A stretch of DNA of 64,000 nucleotides from Nitrosomonas sp. (lineage in GTDB: Bacteria; Pseudomonadota; Gammaproteobacteria; Burkholderiales; Nitrosomonadaceae): contig JAMWZR010000004.1 in assembly GCA_024282035.1 (NCBI GenBank), positions 1 to 64,000 on the forward strand, in the 5' to 3' direction. Both the position numbers and the translations under genes were made by a program. Positions 22,130 through 28,807 of this stretch are shown here, in pieces (positions within the stretch are counted from its first letter, which is position 1; every line of letters starts with the position of its first letter). The notes under the pieces were generated by a model, which worked only from the letters and a program-made list of their open reading frames with translations, was not told where the DNA came from and ran no database searches.

Positions 22130-22952
22130 TAGATACTCCTATCCATACGCTAAATTCTCTGTAGATAGCAATTATAGCGTTTGGATCATCACTATGATTG
22201 TAGAAAAGAGCACATCGCAAAATTTTGCTATTTCCGTTGAACCACTTGGTTACAAAATTTCAAAAAATACGAATTCTACAATAGTCAGTGAGTGTTATCG
22301 TGGTTTCGCAACGCATTTACCTAAAGGAAGCGATAAGAATGCGAGCTGCTTTGTCTCAAATCAATACAATTAATTGAAAGCGCAAATCAACTAAATCGTA
22401 AGTCAGGTATATTGAATAGGAGTGATGCGAGGAGCGACGAGGGGTTGTTCAAAAGCGTGTTTAATCAACATTACAAGATAGCGTATCAATCATAAAGATT
22501 ATCCTGTGCCGCCTACACCACTAGCAGGTGGAATTGCTGGGCGGATAAAATATAATGTCATTAATTTTTTTTTCGTTAGAAGTGATTTTTTCATACATAA
22601 CCTTAATACGAGTATTATTAATATCTAAATATTCACCTTTCTGTTAATTGCGTTTATTCTTGTATTACCTACTAAGGTTCAAATGCACTAAGAATTTCTC
22701 CATAAATTCCGTTGAATAATTGCTGTCAATAGTCACAAGGTCTAATTCTATTTTTTTGGGCAATGTGATAAATCTTCATCCGGTATTAGTGTGCCGGATA
22801 CTTCTGAAGCAGAAATAGGTGAAGAGCGTGCTCTTATTAATAGGCATGTGCGTTTATGCATCTTGAATACTGTTAATGAAAGCGGCAAATATACTGAATG
22901 AAACTTGGCGTATGACATGATCAAAAAAGAATAAAAGCTGATAACAATTTGC
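22130..22952. other. AT-rich intergenic stretch of about 820 bases
   Basis: No supported gene was found here. Short open frames (for example 22194-22373 plus, and 22748-23035 minus) lack recognisable motifs and ribosome-binding sites. A perfect -10-like TATAAT lies at 22551-22556 with no matching -35 at 17 bases. The stretch is visibly richer in A+T than its left flank and marks the edge of the ECF-sigma accessory region. A decayed gene cannot be excluded. Confidence 0.5.
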
Positions 22953-23714
22953 ATGGATGAAATAAGAATACGCTTGAGTTGTTGGAAAAAGCTGGTGCTG
23001 ATGACGTTTTCGTCGCTGGTACTGGTATTTTCCATGGATGTGCGCGCCGAGTTAACGGGTAGTGTAACGGGAGCAACCGACTACCTTTGGCGTGGCTATT
23101 CTAAAAGTAATGGCAGTCTGGTTGGGCAAGCCAATATCGATTATCAATTCAGATCAGGGGTATATCTCGGCAGTTTTTTTTCGACAGTGAATTTTGCAGA
23201 CCATGGTTTTAAAGATCGTTCTAATTTTGAATTAAGACCTTATCTGGGATATGCACATACATTATCGGATGACTGGCGAGCCAATGTGGCATGGACGAGA
23301 TATATTTATGACGGGAAAATATTTGGTCAAGTTGCTGACTATAACGAATTTTATTTTTTTCTTCATTTTCGAGATTTGCTGACAGCCAATGTAAATTTTT
23401 CCGAAAATGGTTATAACCAGAATCATATGTCCTTTAGTACCGAAATCACCGGTCGTTACCCGATTACGGATGCTGTGGAAATATCCGGTGGTGTGGGCTT
23501 TAACAAACAAAAAAAGATACTGGAGTATGATTATGTTTATTGGAACTCAGGAGTGACTGTTCATTTTTCACGTAATATTGGCATTGATATCCGCTACTTT
23601 GGTAGCGAAGAGGCAGGTGTAGCCTCTTATCAGTCATCACCGGCAGCACATTGGGAATTTCACCCGTATCATATTGGGCATCGTGCAGTATTCTCGATCA
23701 CATTTGGATTTTAG
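22953..23714 (+). CDS. TorF-type putative outer-membrane porin (TIGR02001-like)
   Basis: This 253-residue protein has a signal peptide cleaved about residue 32 (after VRA). The mature part starts LTGSVTGATDYLWRGYSKSNGSL, matching the conserved opening (TG...T-D-Y-x-x-R-G-x-S) of TorF-family proteins. Alternating aromatic and polar beta-strands follow, and the chain ends in Phe (ITFGF), as expected for an outer-membrane barrel. The substrate is unknown. No clear ribosome-binding site is visible, and the start is the first ATG. It is followed by an ECF sigma gene after 125 bases and may belong to that regulon. Confidence 0.78.
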   Translation: MDEIRIRLSCWKKLVLMTFSSLVLVFSMDVRAELTGSVTGATDYLWRGYSKSNGSLVGQANIDYQFRSGVYLGSFFSTVNFADHGFKDRSNFELRPYLGYAHTLSDDWRANVAWTRYIYDGKIFGQVADYNEFYFFLHFRDLLTANVNFSENGYNQNHMSFSTEITGRYPITDAVEISGGVGFNKQKKILEYDYVYWNSGVTVHFSRNIGIDIRYFGSEEAGVASYQSSPAAHWEFHPYHIGHRAVFSITFGF

Positions 23715-23839
23715 TTTTTGTTTTCTTGTAATGAACTTTTTATATGAATTGCGAAATATACGTTGCGATACGAAAATTTAAGAATAAATAGGCTGTTTGA
23801 AACGAACAAGCATGACGGGATGCGAAATTAAAAATAAAA

Positions 23840-24418
23840 ATGCGAAAATCCTTATGCTCTGATGAACAACAATTAAAAGAGCGCAATTTAATTGTTGAAA
23901 TTACAACGGGAAGTGAAAGGGCTTTTGAAGAACTCTATCAATTATATTTTAGTCGACTTTATCAATTCATTTATCAAATAACAAGAAACCAAGATGCAAT
24001 TGAAGAAGTCATTAACGATGTAATGTTTGTAGTTTGGGAAAAAGCATCAACCTATGATCAGATATGTCGTCCTTCGACTTGGATTTTAGGGATAGCTTAT
24101 TTTAAAGCCATTAAACGTGTTGAACAGAATATTGTCCGTGAAGACCGGGCGGTAGAGTTCGATGATGAGTTGGATTATTTTCCAGATAGAAGTACACAGT
24201 GGATTTCACAATTAGAAACCGATAACTGGCTGGAAGCAGCGTTTAGTAGGTTATCGGCTGAACAGCGAGCAGTGGTGGAAATGACTTATTATCAGGGGTT
24301 ACATTACAATGAAATATCTGAGATCATGCAATGTCCTGAGAATACTGTAAAAACCAGAATGTTTCATGCACGCAAGGTATTGGCTAAATTATTTATGGAG
24401 CTTAACGGCGGGGTCTAA
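23840..24418 (+). CDS. ECF-family RNA polymerase sigma factor
   Basis: This 192-residue sigma-70 family factor has only regions 2 and 4. Region 2 (about residues 25-95) includes AFEELYQLYFSRLYQFIYQIT and the -10-binding part DAIEEVINDVMFVVWEKA...PSTWILGIAY. Region 4 (about 135-188) includes LSAEQRAVVEMTYYQGLHYNEI and the helix-turn-helix ISEIMQCPENTVKTRMFHARK. There is no extra domain. A zinc-finger anti-sigma gene follows three bases after its stop, and a subtilase gene overlaps that one, so the three are one operon. It should direct RNA polymerase to an envelope-stress or uptake regulon. Confidence 0.94.
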   Translation: MRKSLCSDEQQLKERNLIVEITTGSERAFEELYQLYFSRLYQFIYQITRNQDAIEEVINDVMFVVWEKASTYDQICRPSTWILGIAYFKAIKRVEQNIVREDRAVEFDDELDYFPDRSTQWISQLETDNWLEAAFSRLSAEQRAVVEMTYYQGLHYNEISEIMQCPENTVKTRMFHARKVLAKLFMELNGGV

Positions 24419-24421
24419 AAG

Positions 24422-25123
24422 ATGTTATCTGATAAAACAAAATTTTCTAGTGGGACTGAGCATCAGAAAGTTTGGGATCTTTTGCCTTGGTATATCAATC
24501 GTACTCTTGATACAACCGAGAGGGAGATTGTTCACGTTCACGTCAAAACCTGTATTGCGTGTCGTATCGAATTGAATCAACAACAACTGATATACGAGAG
24601 AATACCGCAACTAGGCTCGACTCGGCAATTATCTCAAGTTTCATTTAATCAATTAAAAAATAGAATAGCAAAACGTCCGCAGATGTATGTGGTTTCACAG
24701 CAAGAAAAGCGGATTGAAAAATTACCCTCTATGTCTTGGCGGAGTGTCAGCTTTCTTAAACATGTCGCATTGGCAGCAAGCATTGTGATGTTTGCGCTAC
24801 CATTTATGCTAAGTTCGTCCATTGATTATCATTCTTCTGGAAATGAATATAGAACACTTGCCAGTGCAACAACTGGTGAACAAAGTCAAAATATTCTTAG
24901 AATTGTTTTTACTGACCCACTCAGTCCACAAAAAATCAACACTATATTGGATAGTGTATCGGGTGAGATTCTGAGTGGTCCATCGGAAAACGGCGTGTAT
25001 GAGGTCAGAATTGGTAACCAGCAATCGAGCTTGCAAATGGTTAAAGCTGCGATAACCCGATTGAAAAATAATCAGGATGTTGTCTTTGCTGAATTTGCGC
25101 ATGGTTTACCTGCTTCTAAATGA
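24422..25123 (+). CDS. Zinc-finger anti-sigma factor with a periplasmic propeptide-like domain
   Basis: 233 residues. The N-terminal anti-sigma domain carries the ZAS-type motif His40-x3-Cys44-x2-Cys47 and should bind the ECF factor encoded just upstream. A single membrane segment lies at about residues 113-132. The periplasmic part (133-233) contains a compact segment (about 158-227) with the order strand, helix, strand (GEILS), strand (YEVRI), helix (QMVKAAITRLK), strand (DVVFAEFA). This order resembles the propeptide-like fold of subtilases and the segment before the catalytic domain of the next gene's product. That likeness is by eye only. The stop overlaps the start of the subtilase gene as ATGA. 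Confidence 0.85.
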   Translation: MLSDKTKFSSGTEHQKVWDLLPWYINRTLDTTEREIVHVHVKTCIACRIELNQQQLIYERIPQLGSTRQLSQVSFNQLKNRIAKRPQMYVVSQQEKRIEKLPSMSWRSVSFLKHVALAASIVMFALPFMLSSSIDYHSSGNEYRTLASATTGEQSQNILRIVFTDPLSPQKINTILDSVSGEILSGPSENGVYEVRIGNQQSSLQMVKAAITRLKNNQDVVFAEFAHGLPASK

Positions 25124-26445
25124 GTCATAGTGTAAAACTGGGTGATCAAATGAAAATAGGCCTGTTTTTTGTCTCGTTTCTGTGGTGCATGCTGAGTGCC
25201 GTTGTGGCGAATGCCGAACTGGAAATGTCAGTTGATTCGCAGATTTTTGATGATAAACAATCTGAACGTATAATTTTGGTTACTTATTCGGATAAGCATA
25301 TTAGCCGCGTTCCGATTGGCACATCGAGTCATGCGTATCGACGCAGAGGGGATTACAGCAGCTCGAGTTGGGGCAAGCGCATAGCCGCCAGTCTGGAATC
25401 GGATTATAAACTGAAGATACTATCGCAATGGCCTATCAAAGAAATTGGTGAACATTGTGTCGTTTACCTGGTTAGCGAGAATCATTCTATTGATGACGTG
25501 ATCAATGCGTTATCAAAGGATGAACGGGTCGAGAATGTTCAATTGATGAATACTTTTCACGTTTTGTCTGCCAGTAAATACAGCGATCCCTATTACCGGC
25601 TGCAATCCAATGTTCAATCTATCAATCTGGCCGAGATTCACTCTCAAGCAACTGGAAAAAACATAACGATCGCGATCGTTGACACCGGGGTGGATACCAA
25701 GCACCCAGATCTGGATGGCCAAATCCAAAACAGCAAGGATTTTGTAGCACAGAAGTCTTTGGCAGCTTTGGGGGATAATCACGGTACAGCAATTGCTGGA
25801 GTGATTGCAGCTAAACCAAACAATGGACAAGGCATTGTCGGCATTGCACCTGATAGCAATGTGGTTTCGCTGAAGGCATGCTGGGGCACCAAGGAAGGCG
25901 CACTCGAAGCTGTTTGCAACAGTTTCACGCTTGCGTTAGCTATCAATACAGCGATTGAGATGAAAGTCGATGTGCTGAATCTGAGTCTTACAGGACCACA
26001 CGATCCCTTATTAGCAAAATTGGTAGATAAAGCAGTGAAGCAGGGTATTATTGTGGTTGCTTCGCAAGCTGACAAAGTGGATGGCAAATCGGGTTTTCCG
26101 TCACAACAGCCCGGTGTCATCGGTGTCAGAAGTACACATAGTCAAGATTTACTTCCAACAAACAGCAACCATGTGTTTGCGATCACTGCACCTGGACAAG
26201 ATATATTGACGACATTGCCTAATGGTGCATATGATTTTGTATCCGGTAACTCTTTGGCTACTGCTCATATTTCTGGATTGGCGGCATTACTCTTGCAATC
26301 GAAACGCAACGTCAATCGTAATGAGTTGATGAATTTATTGGCTACAGCGAATGAACCAACGTTTTATAAAGTTTTCCGCAAGGGAAAACATAACAGTACA
26401 GTCAGTATGACAGTCAATAAAAATTCCACTCGGGATGGAAGTTAG
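25120..26445 (+). CDS. Exported S8-family serine protease (subtilase)
   Basis: 441 residues with an N-terminal signal peptide (KIGLFFVSFLWCMLSAVVANA); Met11 (25150) would give a cleaner signal, while Met1 overlaps the anti-sigma stop. A propeptide-like region (about residues 85-148, including CVVYLVSENHSIDDVINAL) precedes the catalytic domain. Catalytic residues are Asp188 (IAIVDTGVD), His221 (DNHGTAIAGV) and Ser378 (SGNSLATAHISG). The oxyanion-hole Asn expected in the A-A-G-N motif is not seen; the segment reads VVASQADK with Ala317 at that place. The tail has no membrane anchor. As third gene of the sigma/anti-sigma operon it may act on the anti-sigma's periplasmic domain. Confidence 0.88.
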   Translation: MSHSVKLGDQMKIGLFFVSFLWCMLSAVVANAELEMSVDSQIFDDKQSERIILVTYSDKHISRVPIGTSSHAYRRRGDYSSSSWGKRIAASLESDYKLKILSQWPIKEIGEHCVVYLVSENHSIDDVINALSKDERVENVQLMNTFHVLSASKYSDPYYRLQSNVQSINLAEIHSQATGKNITIAIVDTGVDTKHPDLDGQIQNSKDFVAQKSLAALGDNHGTAIAGVIAAKPNNGQGIVGIAPDSNVVSLKACWGTKEGALEAVCNSFTLALAINTAIEMKVDVLNLSLTGPHDPLLAKLVDKAVKQGIIVVASQADKVDGKSGFPSQQPGVIGVRSTHSQDLLPTNSNHVFAITAPGQDILTTLPNGAYDFVSGNSLATAHISGLAALLLQSKRNVNRNELMNLLATANEPTFYKVFRKGKHNSTVSMTVNKNSTRDGS

Positions 26446-26740
26446 TATTATTGATGTTGTTGAAGGTAATGGTAGATTGTTACTTTTCAATGTAATGTAG
26501 AAAGCAGTACCCTCTTAAGGTTTTCTCTCTCATCTCAGGTCTTGGGCGATAGTTGGTAATTAATCCTTCTGGGAACGAGTCCAAATTCATTCTTTATTGA
26601 TCGATATACAACAACCATAATTCCTTGTGTTGAGAATTGATCGGCTTTAACCTATTAATTCACATCAATTTTGTGGATTTCTTGTATTATCATTGCATAT
26701 TCGACATTCCAGAATAGCCGCAGATAATTACGTGGGATCT

Positions 26741-28807
26741 ATGGGCGCAATAATTGTTATTGTGAAAAGGTTAAGTTATGGTTTGCGTTTCATTCTTTTT
26801 TTGCTGTTATCGATCAATGCTATTTGGTTAATCAGTCAGTCTGCCAATGGTGCAACGCTGGGGCAGAATCGTATTCTGGATTTGAGTATCGAAGAGTTGA
26901 TGCAGATTGAAGTAACTTCGGTGTCGCGACGTGCTCAAAAACTCTCTCAAACAGCATCCGCAATTTTTGTCATCACCCAAGACGATATCCGGCGTTCTGG
27001 TGTGACCAGTATTCCAGAAGCTTTGCGAATGGCCCCTGGGGTCGAAGTGGCACGCGTAGGAACAGACAAATGGTCAATTAGTGTTCGGGGATTCAATGGT
27101 CGATTTGCTAACAAGCTACAGGTGCTGATTGATGGTCGCAGTGTTTATACTCCATTGTTTTCCGGTGTGATCTGGAGTCAGCAAGATACTTTTATCGAAG
27201 ATATCGAACGTATCGAAGTGATACGTGGACCAAGCGCTACCGTGTGGGGCGCAAATGCGGTCAACGGTGTGATCAATATTATTACCAAGAAAGCTGCTGA
27301 CACGCAGGGAGTTCTGTTCTCTGCCGGAGGAGGTAGTTTTGAGCAGGGTTTCATGGGGGTGCGCTATGGCGGGAAATTGAGTGACAACACAGCTTTTCGC
27401 TTATACGCCAAAAGTTTTGGCCGAGATAATATGACTTCAATCGCTTCGACCAATGTGCATGATAACTGGCAATCTGCCCGAGCTGGATTTCGAATTGATC
27501 ATGTACATGGAATAGATCAGGTGACGTTACAGGGTGATATTTTTGTCAATCGCATTGGTGATAGCCTGCAGCAACCTACCTTGCTCGCACCATTTTCTCG
27601 ACTGGATGTTGTCGACACAACCGAAAATGGTGGAAATATCCGAATGCGCTGGGATCGAAATTTTTCCAACCAATCTTCCATGATGTTGCAGGCCTACTAT
27701 GATCGAGTATATAACCAGCTTGCTCCACTAACAAAATATGCCGAAAGCTTTGATATTGATTTTCAGCATCGCTTGCCACTGTTCAGTCAGCATGATGTGA
27801 CTTGGGGGCTGAACTACCGCTTATATAACAACAAGGTTGCCGAATCTGTGTTGACGGCATTCACTCCTGCTCAAAAGACAAATCATAATTTCAGTGCTTT
27901 TGTGCGCGATGAGATTGCATTGATACCCAACAAGCTGGCCCTATTTCTGGGCACGCGGCTGGATCACAATGATTTCACTGGTCTCGAGATACAACCAAGC
28001 GGGCGTTTGATGTTAACGCCTAATGAGCATAATTCGATTTGGATATCGGTATCCAGGGCGGTGCGCATTCCATCGCGGGGAGAAAATGATGTCACCATTG
28101 CGGGACGAGTATTGCAATCATTGCCCGGAACAACGGGATCGACTCTACCAGGCTTGATGGTCGTACAGGGGAATAATCATTTTGCATCAGAAAAACTGAT
28201 TGCATATGAACTGGGTTATCGTCGTCCGCTGGCGTCCAATATTTCCATTGATCTGGCAGGTTTCTTCAACGACTATACGCAATTGCGGGACTTTAGGTTT
28301 GGTCAACCCGTCCCCGGGGCGGGGATTATTCCACATGTGGTTTTGCCAATCTTGTTTACCAATGATACTACTGCCCATTCTTATGGCATGGAGACTTCGG
28401 TCGACTGGCGTCCACGGGAGAATTGGCGATTGCAAGGCAATTATTCATACTTGCAAATTCATACCGCATCTAACGCAGAGTTTCGGCAAATGGATTCGTC
28501 TTCTTCAGGTGCGGGCAAAGCCAATCCTCGCCATCAATTTTCACTGCGTTCGCACTACGACTATTCTGAAAGGTTGCAATTCAATTTATGGGTGCGTTAT
28601 GTCAGTGGTTTGGCATTTTTTAATATCCCGGCTTATGTCACCATGGATGCGAAGCTCGCATGGAAGCCCATCAAAAATACCGAGTTCTTTGTAGTGGGAC
28701 AGAATCTGTTTCAACAGAAGCATCGCGAATCACAGTCGGACTTCATTCCATCGATTCCGGTTTACATACCTAGGGGCGTTTATGCTGGGATGGAGTGGCG
28801 ATTCTAA
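26741..28807 (+). CDS. TonB-dependent outer-membrane receptor
   Basis: About 688 residues from ATG 26741; the frame is open to 26693 but without an ATG. An N-terminal hydrophobic segment (LRFILFLLLSINAIWLI) serves as signal peptide. The mature protein begins near ILDLSIEELMQIEVTSVSRR and continues with the plug domain: IFVITQDDIRRSGVTSIPEALRMAPGV, SISVRGFNGRFANKLQVLIDGR and IERIEVIRGPSATVWGANAVNGVINIITK. A 22-strand barrel follows, ending GMEWRF with terminal Phe. There is no STN signalling domain, so it is probably not a FecA-type transducer for the ECF factor upstream. The ligand is unknown. Confidence 0.9.
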   Translation: MGAIIVIVKRLSYGLRFILFLLLSINAIWLISQSANGATLGQNRILDLSIEELMQIEVTSVSRRAQKLSQTASAIFVITQDDIRRSGVTSIPEALRMAPGVEVARVGTDKWSISVRGFNGRFANKLQVLIDGRSVYTPLFSGVIWSQQDTFIEDIERIEVIRGPSATVWGANAVNGVINIITKKAADTQGVLFSAGGGSFEQGFMGVRYGGKLSDNTAFRLYAKSFGRDNMTSIASTNVHDNWQSARAGFRIDHVHGIDQVTLQGDIFVNRIGDSLQQPTLLAPFSRLDVVDTTENGGNIRMRWDRNFSNQSSMMLQAYYDRVYNQLAPLTKYAESFDIDFQHRLPLFSQHDVTWGLNYRLYNNKVAESVLTAFTPAQKTNHNFSAFVRDEIALIPNKLALFLGTRLDHNDFTGLEIQPSGRLMLTPNEHNSIWISVSRAVRIPSRGENDVTIAGRVLQSLPGTTGSTLPGLMVVQGNNHFASEKLIAYELGYRRPLASNISIDLAGFFNDYTQLRDFRFGQPVPGAGIIPHVVLPILFTNDTTAHSYGMETSVDWRPRENWRLQGNYSYLQIHTASNAEFRQMDSSSSGAGKANPRHQFSLRSHYDYSERLQFNLWVRYVSGLAFFNIPAYVTMDAKLAWKPIKNTEFFVVGQNLFQQKHRESQSDFIPSIPVYIPRGVYAGMEWRF

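Follow-up and report, generated by a model that had tools for sequence, protein, structure and literature searches.

A conserved operon of ECF sigma factor, anti-sigma factor and subtilase in Nitrosomonas, and a possible site-1 role for its protease

The operon and its conservation

We analyzed a window of 64,000 nucleotides (nt) from Nitrosomonas sp. (assembly GCA_024282035.1, contig JAMWZR010000004.1, positions 1 to 64,000), in which three consecutive genes encode an extracytoplasmic function (ECF) sigma factor, an anti-sigma factor with a ZAS domain, and an exported subtilase of family S8 (Table 1). The ECF protein consists of sigma regions 2 and 4 only (Pfam). A first-pass annotation of this DNA had described the anti-sigma factor as having a finger formed by H40, C44 and C47 and one membrane span. 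Both features hold, with a finger that is invariant among the aligned homologs and a transmembrane-like segment at residues 116-134; the zf-HC2 model scored 21.1 bits, slightly below its cut-off of 22.2 bits (Pfam). A single span was also found by hydropathy in 79 of the 84 anti-sigma factors assembled below, and the Cys residues of the finger are absent from several long-type homologs. The S8 protease reported as the third gene was likewise confirmed, with catalytic residues D188, H221 and S378 all present. The window's genome (G000; handles G and L denote genomes and loci) measures 2.9 Mb, has its nearest named relatives in Nitrosomonas, contains no other S8 match, and encodes RseP (TIGR00054, 418.5 bits).

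Table 1. Features of the locus, with positions in the window
Feature	Position	Strand	Basis or remark
TorF family putative porin (Gcw_chp)	22953-23714	+	Pfam PF09694, 3.1e-15; NCBIfam TIGR02001, 86.7 bits
Candidate autoregulatory ECF promoter TGAACTTTTTATATGAATTGCGAAATATAC	23732-23761	+	78 nt upstream of the ECF start codon
ECF sigma factor	23840-24418	+	192 amino acids (aa); Sigma70_r2 (PF04542) and Sigma70_r4_2 (PF08281) above cut-off (Pfam)
ZAS anti-sigma factor	24422-25123	+	233 aa; one transmembrane span, aa 116-134 (hydropathy)
ZAS finger H40-x3-C44-x2-C47	24539-24562	+	invariant in 22/22 aligned anti-sigma factors
Juxtamembrane motif Y143-R-T-L-A147	24848-24862	+	proposed site-1 cleavage at L146/A147; conserved linker columns
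Subtilase-prodomain-like periplasmic domain	24893-25096	+	aa 158-225; AlphaFold2 fold; PF22148 matches in relatives
Exported S8 subtilase	25120-26445	+	441 aa as open reading frame; PF00082, 6e-37, 127.9 bits
Protease's own N-terminal prodomain region	25255-25566	+	about aa 46-149; alignment of 15 homologs, position before the catalytic domain
Predicted pro/catalytic junction F146-H-V-L-S150	25555-25569	+	cut after L149; F146 invariant in 15/15
Catalytic triad D188, H221, S378	25681-25683, 25780-25782, 26251-26253	+	D/H/S in 75/75 complete S8 catalytic domains
D318 at the oxyanion-hole position	26071-26073	+	Asn in canonical subtilases

The genes had also been said to be packed with a 3-base gap and an ATGA overlap. 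Both are as stated in the DNA, but the overlap may not be the true junction. Most S8 homologs align from Met11 of the window's open reading frame (ORF), and a GGGTGA-like ribosome site (identified by eye) precedes the Met11 codon, so that translation probably starts at 25150; a signal-peptide-like stretch follows Met11.

The first-pass annotation had named a lack of conservation in related genomes as a refutation of its proposal, and this check came out in favour of the proposal. In a set of 61 genomes that comprised 60 relatives besides the window's own, the anti-sigma factor was detected in 21, and an orthologous protease (E < 1e-70) in the same 21. ECF, anti-sigma and S8 genes stood together in all 21 loci of relatives that were fetched outside the window, with a partial ECF gene in L031. 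Because it recurs in 21/21 loci, the arrangement is not due to chance. Another set, of 30 loci, came from named genomes and shares many genomes with the first; the S8 gene adjoined the anti-sigma gene in 29 of the 30, and in L068 the contig ends inside the anti-sigma gene. The named genomes with a subtilase beside the ECF operon include Nitrosomonas, Methylobacter and Povalibacter.

The trio was also found in other orders and classes of the phylum. A class-wide search matched 34 of 369 genomes. Of its places with the C-terminal domain, 24 were inspected, comprising 18 with an S8 neighbour, four without (L107, L109, L113 and L118) and two at a contig end. When the domain alone was searched across the phylum, 36 of 398 genomes matched at 39 places, several of them outside the window's class; S8 lay beside the pair in 29 of the 30 places whose loci were examined, the remaining locus (L154) having neither an ECF nor an S8 gene. 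After merging identical anti-sigma ends (99 reduced to 84) and omitting the short loci L126, L128, L129, L132, L134, L138 and L143, which were duplicates or had been replaced by wider fetches, an S8 gene was found within the fetched stretch in 77 of 84 anti-sigma loci. Of the seven S8-less loci, L110 and L158 are cut off by the end of a contig, and a third is L154.

As a control, anti-sigma factors from the class search that lack a recognized domain were followed downstream for about 4 kb or more, and 0 of 8 had an S8 match. These eight were the informative ones among 11 wider stretches; L210 and L218 reached contig ends, and L215 (G414) proved to be a domain place with S8 beside it. One exception was noted, L206 (G365), where an anti-sigma factor without recognized domain has an adjacent S8 gene. 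The association was also approached from the protease side, using nine high-scoring S8 genes (157-249 bits) from genomes without a recognized prodomain anti-sigma factor (two more of G272, C80 and C72, were omitted). Of the six with upstream sequence, five were directly preceded by an ECF gene and a gene for an anti-sigma-sized membrane protein, the exception being L203. In these five, the prodomain-like end was weakly recognized, in L199 alone (2e-3; PF22148, 13.8 bits).

Two of the orphan ECF/anti-sigma pairs with a prodomain-like domain, L107 and L109, come from genomes without any S8 match. By eye, both have a dapB-like gene on one side and a Gfo/Idh-type gene and carA on the other. In G006 the trio is present twice in closely similar form (L036 and L037), and a TorF gene was found beside one copy only.

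Prodomain-like domain and linker motif of the anti-sigma factor

Within an AlphaFold2 model of the window's anti-sigma factor that was of low overall confidence (mean predicted local distance difference test score (pLDDT) 66, predicted template modelling score 0.35), residues 158-225 formed a confident beta-alpha-beta-beta-alpha-beta unit, with pLDDT blocks of 83-91 over residues 161-220. This is the element order of a subtilase prodomain, the fold being judged by order of elements only. Pfam searches (E up to 10) matched PF22148 (Fervidolysin_NPro-like) to 21 of 38 homologous domains, with a best value of 9.3e-10; the next family matched 5 of 38. In full-length relatives, PF22148 was detected in 8 of 20 and exceeded its cut-off (21 bits) in L041 (36.2) and L130 (24.7) only. 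The single Pfam family that recurs in these matches is the prodomain of the enzyme type encoded next door. As the window's own domain scores below the cut-off, its assignment as a prodomain rests on the family. Searches of PDB sequences with the anti-sigma factor or its domain found no subtilase prodomain.

The linker between the membrane span and the domain is variable among the 84 sequences, save for five adjoining columns that read [YF]-x-T-[LA]-[AS]. A comparable motif occurs in the protease, at the predicted junction between its own prodomain region and the catalytic domain (no Pfam prodomain match was obtained for the window's S8 protein). Over 77 S8 proteins, the first place of this junction is F or Y in every case, the third is mostly V or L, the fourth mostly M, Q or L, and the fifth most often A. 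In the window, the P1 residue lies eight residues past a Gln at the place of Glu69 of the subtilisin BPN' propeptide, where the spacing to P1 is the same. Subtilisin specificity suits an aromatic residue at P4 and Leu at P1. The linker motif of the anti-sigma factor resembles this predicted self-processing junction of the S8 protease.

The rule [FYW]-x-x-[LMAF]-[SAGT], fixed after the alignment had been viewed, was satisfied at the aligned place by 69 of 77 anti-sigma factors versus 40 of 4116 other linker 5-mers; the motifs of L102, L106, L127 and L133 were placed by eye because the alignment was at least one column off. Motif pairs from the same locus were more alike than permuted pairs, a score reached by 2 of 5000 permutations overall and by 32 of 5000 within subtype (45 representatives, for which relatedness inflates the result). 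The motif was also present in 5/5 anti-sigma factors outside its defining set and in 0/4 orphans without a neighbouring S8 gene; since three of these four orphans belong to one clade, they represent about two independent cases.

Protease subtypes, promoter and neighbouring genes

In the set of 75 complete S8 catalytic domains, from which loci L001-L020 and L072-L101 and incomplete domains were omitted (in two of the 77 rows the D and H columns are missing), the triad is always present. The Asn of the oxyanion hole, N155 in BPN', is kept in 28 domains and absent from 47, including that of the window. The division extends to the partner proteins. A Glu at the end of the last strand of the anti-sigma domain is found in 42 of 47 Asn-less systems versus 2 of 26 Asn-keeping ones, the median tail is 9 versus 3, and a TorF match lies in the fetched stretch of 37/47 versus 0/26, many of the Asn-keeping stretches being short. 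The Asn-keeping systems form one supported clade of the ECF tree, and the split therefore amounts to about one old event. Membership of the window's protein in the subtilase fold family stands, but its full activity is doubtful; slow cutting and a mainly binding function would both be compatible with the split.

Two further observations concern the S8 proteins. That they are lipoproteins in general was considered and rejected, as the lipobox rule fits just 6 of 77. One long-type protease (L103:5428-7245) has an N-terminal IPT/TIG domain above the Pfam cut-off, ahead of the prodomain region.

The candidate promoter is bipartite and ECF-like, of the form TGAAC-N16-GRAATA. It was aligned across 14 Nitrosomonas loci, among which L036 retains little besides TGAAC. 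With at most one mismatch allowed, the pattern occurs upstream of the trio in 13 of the 14 genomes searched (exception G006), and its total of 1-4 matches per genome compares with 0-3 for the reversed pattern. We infer that the module may be autoregulated through this promoter.

Further copies of the promoter were noted elsewhere. A strict copy in L028 (4208-4237, minus strand; G022), downstream of the trio, lies ahead of a 558-aa ORF. This ORF contains two CxxCH motifs, by eye resembles a di-haem cytochrome c peroxidase and is a possible further sigma target. In Nitrosomonas the gene found upstream of the module is usually TorF; a second, looser ECF-like copy is directed away from TorF at 22652-22681 (minus strand) in the window. 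Looser copies near TorF are also found in L022, L024, L025, L027, L028, L032 and L035. In L028 and L035 they lie 144-154 nt upstream of a gene whose small product, 131-136 aa long, begins with a signal-peptide-like stretch; a gene of this kind was not found behind the looser copy in the window. On the other side of the trio, a TonB-dependent receptor of the TOL_0244 family follows directly (26693-28807), to which the loci of the 21 relatives hold no match.

A possible site-1 step and its alternatives

The reading we favour, to which we give a little less than an even chance, is that of an autoregulated ECF/anti-sigma module whose co-encoded, exported subtilase acts as the site-1 protease of its own anti-sigma factor, with RseP acting next. 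We infer the docking and cleavage steps, the signal, the sign of the response and the autoregulation as follows. The ZAS domain of the anti-sigma factor would, by analogy with its family, keep the ECF factor at the inner membrane, and the periplasmic part would present the prodomain-like domain on a flexible linker. A periplasmic signal would free the mature protease from its own propeptide, and the protease would then recognize the anti-sigma domain as it does that propeptide. It would cut the linker at Y-R-T-L|A, the look-alike of its predicted maturation bond F-H-V-L|S. Subsequently, RseP would cut within the membrane, and the freed sigma factor would transcribe its own operon, including the protease gene, from the TGAAC-N16-GRAATA promoter. 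The first-pass proposal that the protease may cut or bind its own anti-sigma factor is partly supported in this way, the prodomain-like domain and the juxtamembrane motif lending it support at the level of sequence.

A number of results weigh against this reading. They include (i) the score of the window's own domain against PF22148 (15.0 bits, cut-off 21), which was exceeded by that of another family below its cut-off, PF01247 (17.2 of 27 bits), and the lack of a PF22148 match for the full-length window anti-sigma factor in a Pfam scan at E up to 1; (ii) the alignment by hhalign of the anti-sigma domain with the partner's own prodomain, with a probability of 6% over 22 columns, a test that was not used because 1 of 40 column shuffles of the target reached 99.6%; (iii) a hidden Markov model cross-search of prodomains against anti-sigma factors, which gave E < 0.01 in 2 of 89 and none among reversed and ECF controls, and was counted as weak; and (iv) a mirror-tree comparison of domain and protease distances, with a partial r of 0.048 given the ECF factor and the anti-sigma N-terminus, where 17 of 1000 within-type permutations reached the observed value, which we counted as no support. 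The motif comparison has its own difficulties besides a rule drawn up after the fact: just 41 of the 77 S8 junctions fit that rule, Gln is the P1 residue of many long-type ones, and the rule is loose, with 4 of 8 control anti-sigma factors containing a match at some place in the 32-aa stretch. On the side of catalysis, the window's clade has lost the oxyanion Asn. Moreover, G374 and G151, genomes that are 99-100% complete, carry the anti-sigma factor and have no S8 match. Lineages with the anti-sigma factor and no S8 gene, together with the absence of the Asn from window-type proteases, make the catalytic step uncertain. Finally, if the C-terminal tail occupies the active site, cleavage on the N-terminal side becomes difficult to explain.

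In a rival reading, the protease would bind the prodomain-like domain and leave it intact, and the anti-sigma factor, with its domain folded and occupied, would be shielded from cleavage by a general site-1 protease. With little free protease, or with the protease engaged elsewhere, the vacant domain would open, the anti-sigma factor would be degraded, and sigma would drive the synthesis of more protease, amounting to homeostasis. A triad kept without the oxyanion Asn (47/75) is what such a role would allow, and the FAE-plus-tail end of the anti-sigma factor, with its Glu in 42/47 versus 2/26 and its median tail of 9 versus 3, suits an inhibitor-like fit. Protection by a bound partner has a precedent in FoxR/FoxA, according to the available part of a published account (PMC11637429). 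We nevertheless consider this explanation unlikely, although worth retaining: the Asn-keeping systems are one ECF clade and count as about one event, and neither the conserved linker motif nor its absence from orphans is explained.

It is also conceivable, but in our judgement improbable, that the protease is no more than an output, controlled by the sigma factor and acting as its effector, and that the anti-sigma domain senses something else. RpoE6 of Sinorhizobium meliloti has the serine protease gene SMa0142 among its most prominent targets, as far as the consulted part of that study goes (PMC6180224). The divergent ORF found there gave a match to the S8 model, the adjacent anti-sigma ORF does not match the domain model, and the orphan anti-sigma factors of G374 and G151 keep the domain without S8. 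A purely downstream role does not account for a recurring Pfam family that is a subtilase prodomain (21/38, next 5), nor for the class search, in which the S8 neighbour goes with the prodomain-like domain. Least of all do we expect the anti-sigma domain to be an extra propeptide in trans that helps to fold the protease or retains it at the inner membrane and hardly affects sigma, since, although prodomains serve as foldases and inhibitors and domain and protease are linked genomically, the proteases appear to carry a prodomain region of their own and no reason would be left for placing the domain on an anti-sigma factor or for the linker motif.

Returning to cleavage of the anti-sigma factor by its co-encoded subtilase, we tentatively extend the proposal, with rather less than even confidence, to a bacterial counterpart of the eukaryotic site-1 protease across the phylum. 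Here the anti-sigma factor would be a decoy of the protease precursor, made of a prodomain-like domain and a maturation-site look-alike, so that the subtilase would sense and cut it by the recognition used in its own maturation. In the Asn-less clade, the module may have drifted away from cutting and become a switch that works by binding. For many of the ECF pathways in which the anti-sigma factor is proteolysed, the site-1 step is open. For the present system the sequence points to a protease, a docking domain and a scissile bond, so that the step can be tested directly. If the proposal is true, the S8 family would be added to the bacterial site-1 proteases, in parallel to eukaryotic S1P; a propeptide-like domain would have been turned into a signalling domain; and a role would be found for the subtilase genes that accompany ECF operons in Nitrosomonas, Methylobacter, Povalibacter and many other genomes of the phylum. 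A full-text search, with subscription journals mostly outside it, yielded no account of a subtilase-prodomain domain in an anti-sigma factor or of a subtilase acting as site-1 protease in bacteria.

Among known systems, the sigma-E pathway of E. coli (RseA/DegS/RseP) shares with the trio an ECF sigma factor, a single-span anti-sigma factor, a serine protease (here proposed) at site 1, and RseP at site 2. DegS, whose gene lies elsewhere, is a trypsin-like protease with a PDZ domain, whereas the trio has an S8 subtilase within the operon and an anti-sigma factor with a prodomain-like domain; the linked S8 protease has no PDZ match (Pfam) and is not of the DegS type. SKI-1/S1P, a lumenal subtilase of eukaryotes, acts on SREBP and ATF6, making the site-1 cut before that of the site-2 metalloprotease. 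The proposed order of a subtilase ahead of a site-2 metalloprotease is the same, but SKI-1/S1P has no anti-sigma factor, and we know of no SKI-1/S1P substrate that mimics its propeptide. Stand-alone I9 inhibitors of the POIA1 type are soluble, free prodomain-like folds acting on a subtilase in trans; in the trio, by contrast, such a fold sits in a membrane anti-sigma factor.

Linkage of ECF26 sigma factors to a serine protease gene has been published, and in the RpoE6/EcfR6/SMa0142 system of S. meliloti, an ECF26 case, the neighbour of the ECF/anti-sigma pair is a serine protease gene, one of the prominent targets of the sigma factor (PMC6180224, in the part available). In that system, unlike in the trio, the protease gene is divergent from rpoE6. 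The S. meliloti record being unannotated, the protease and anti-sigma ORFs were identified by position. The ORF at the place of SMa0142 matched the S8 model (2e-28) and the RpoE6 ECF factor scored 3e-16 against the ECF model of the trio; the EcfR6 ORF had no linker motif, and neither the anti-sigma model nor the domain model matched it at E up to 1. EcfS/TmrS of Bradyrhizobium was considered as a known case and dropped, being an ECF16 pair in a paper whose main text does not contain the word 'protease' (PMC3420878). For ECF54, where subtilase domains are conserved in the neighbourhood and an anti-sigma factor is lacking, proteolysis has been proposed to control the sigma factor, as given in the part of the source that we could consult (PMC8999054). 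With ECF54 the trio shares a subtilase in the ECF neighbourhood, and its anti-sigma factor sets it apart.

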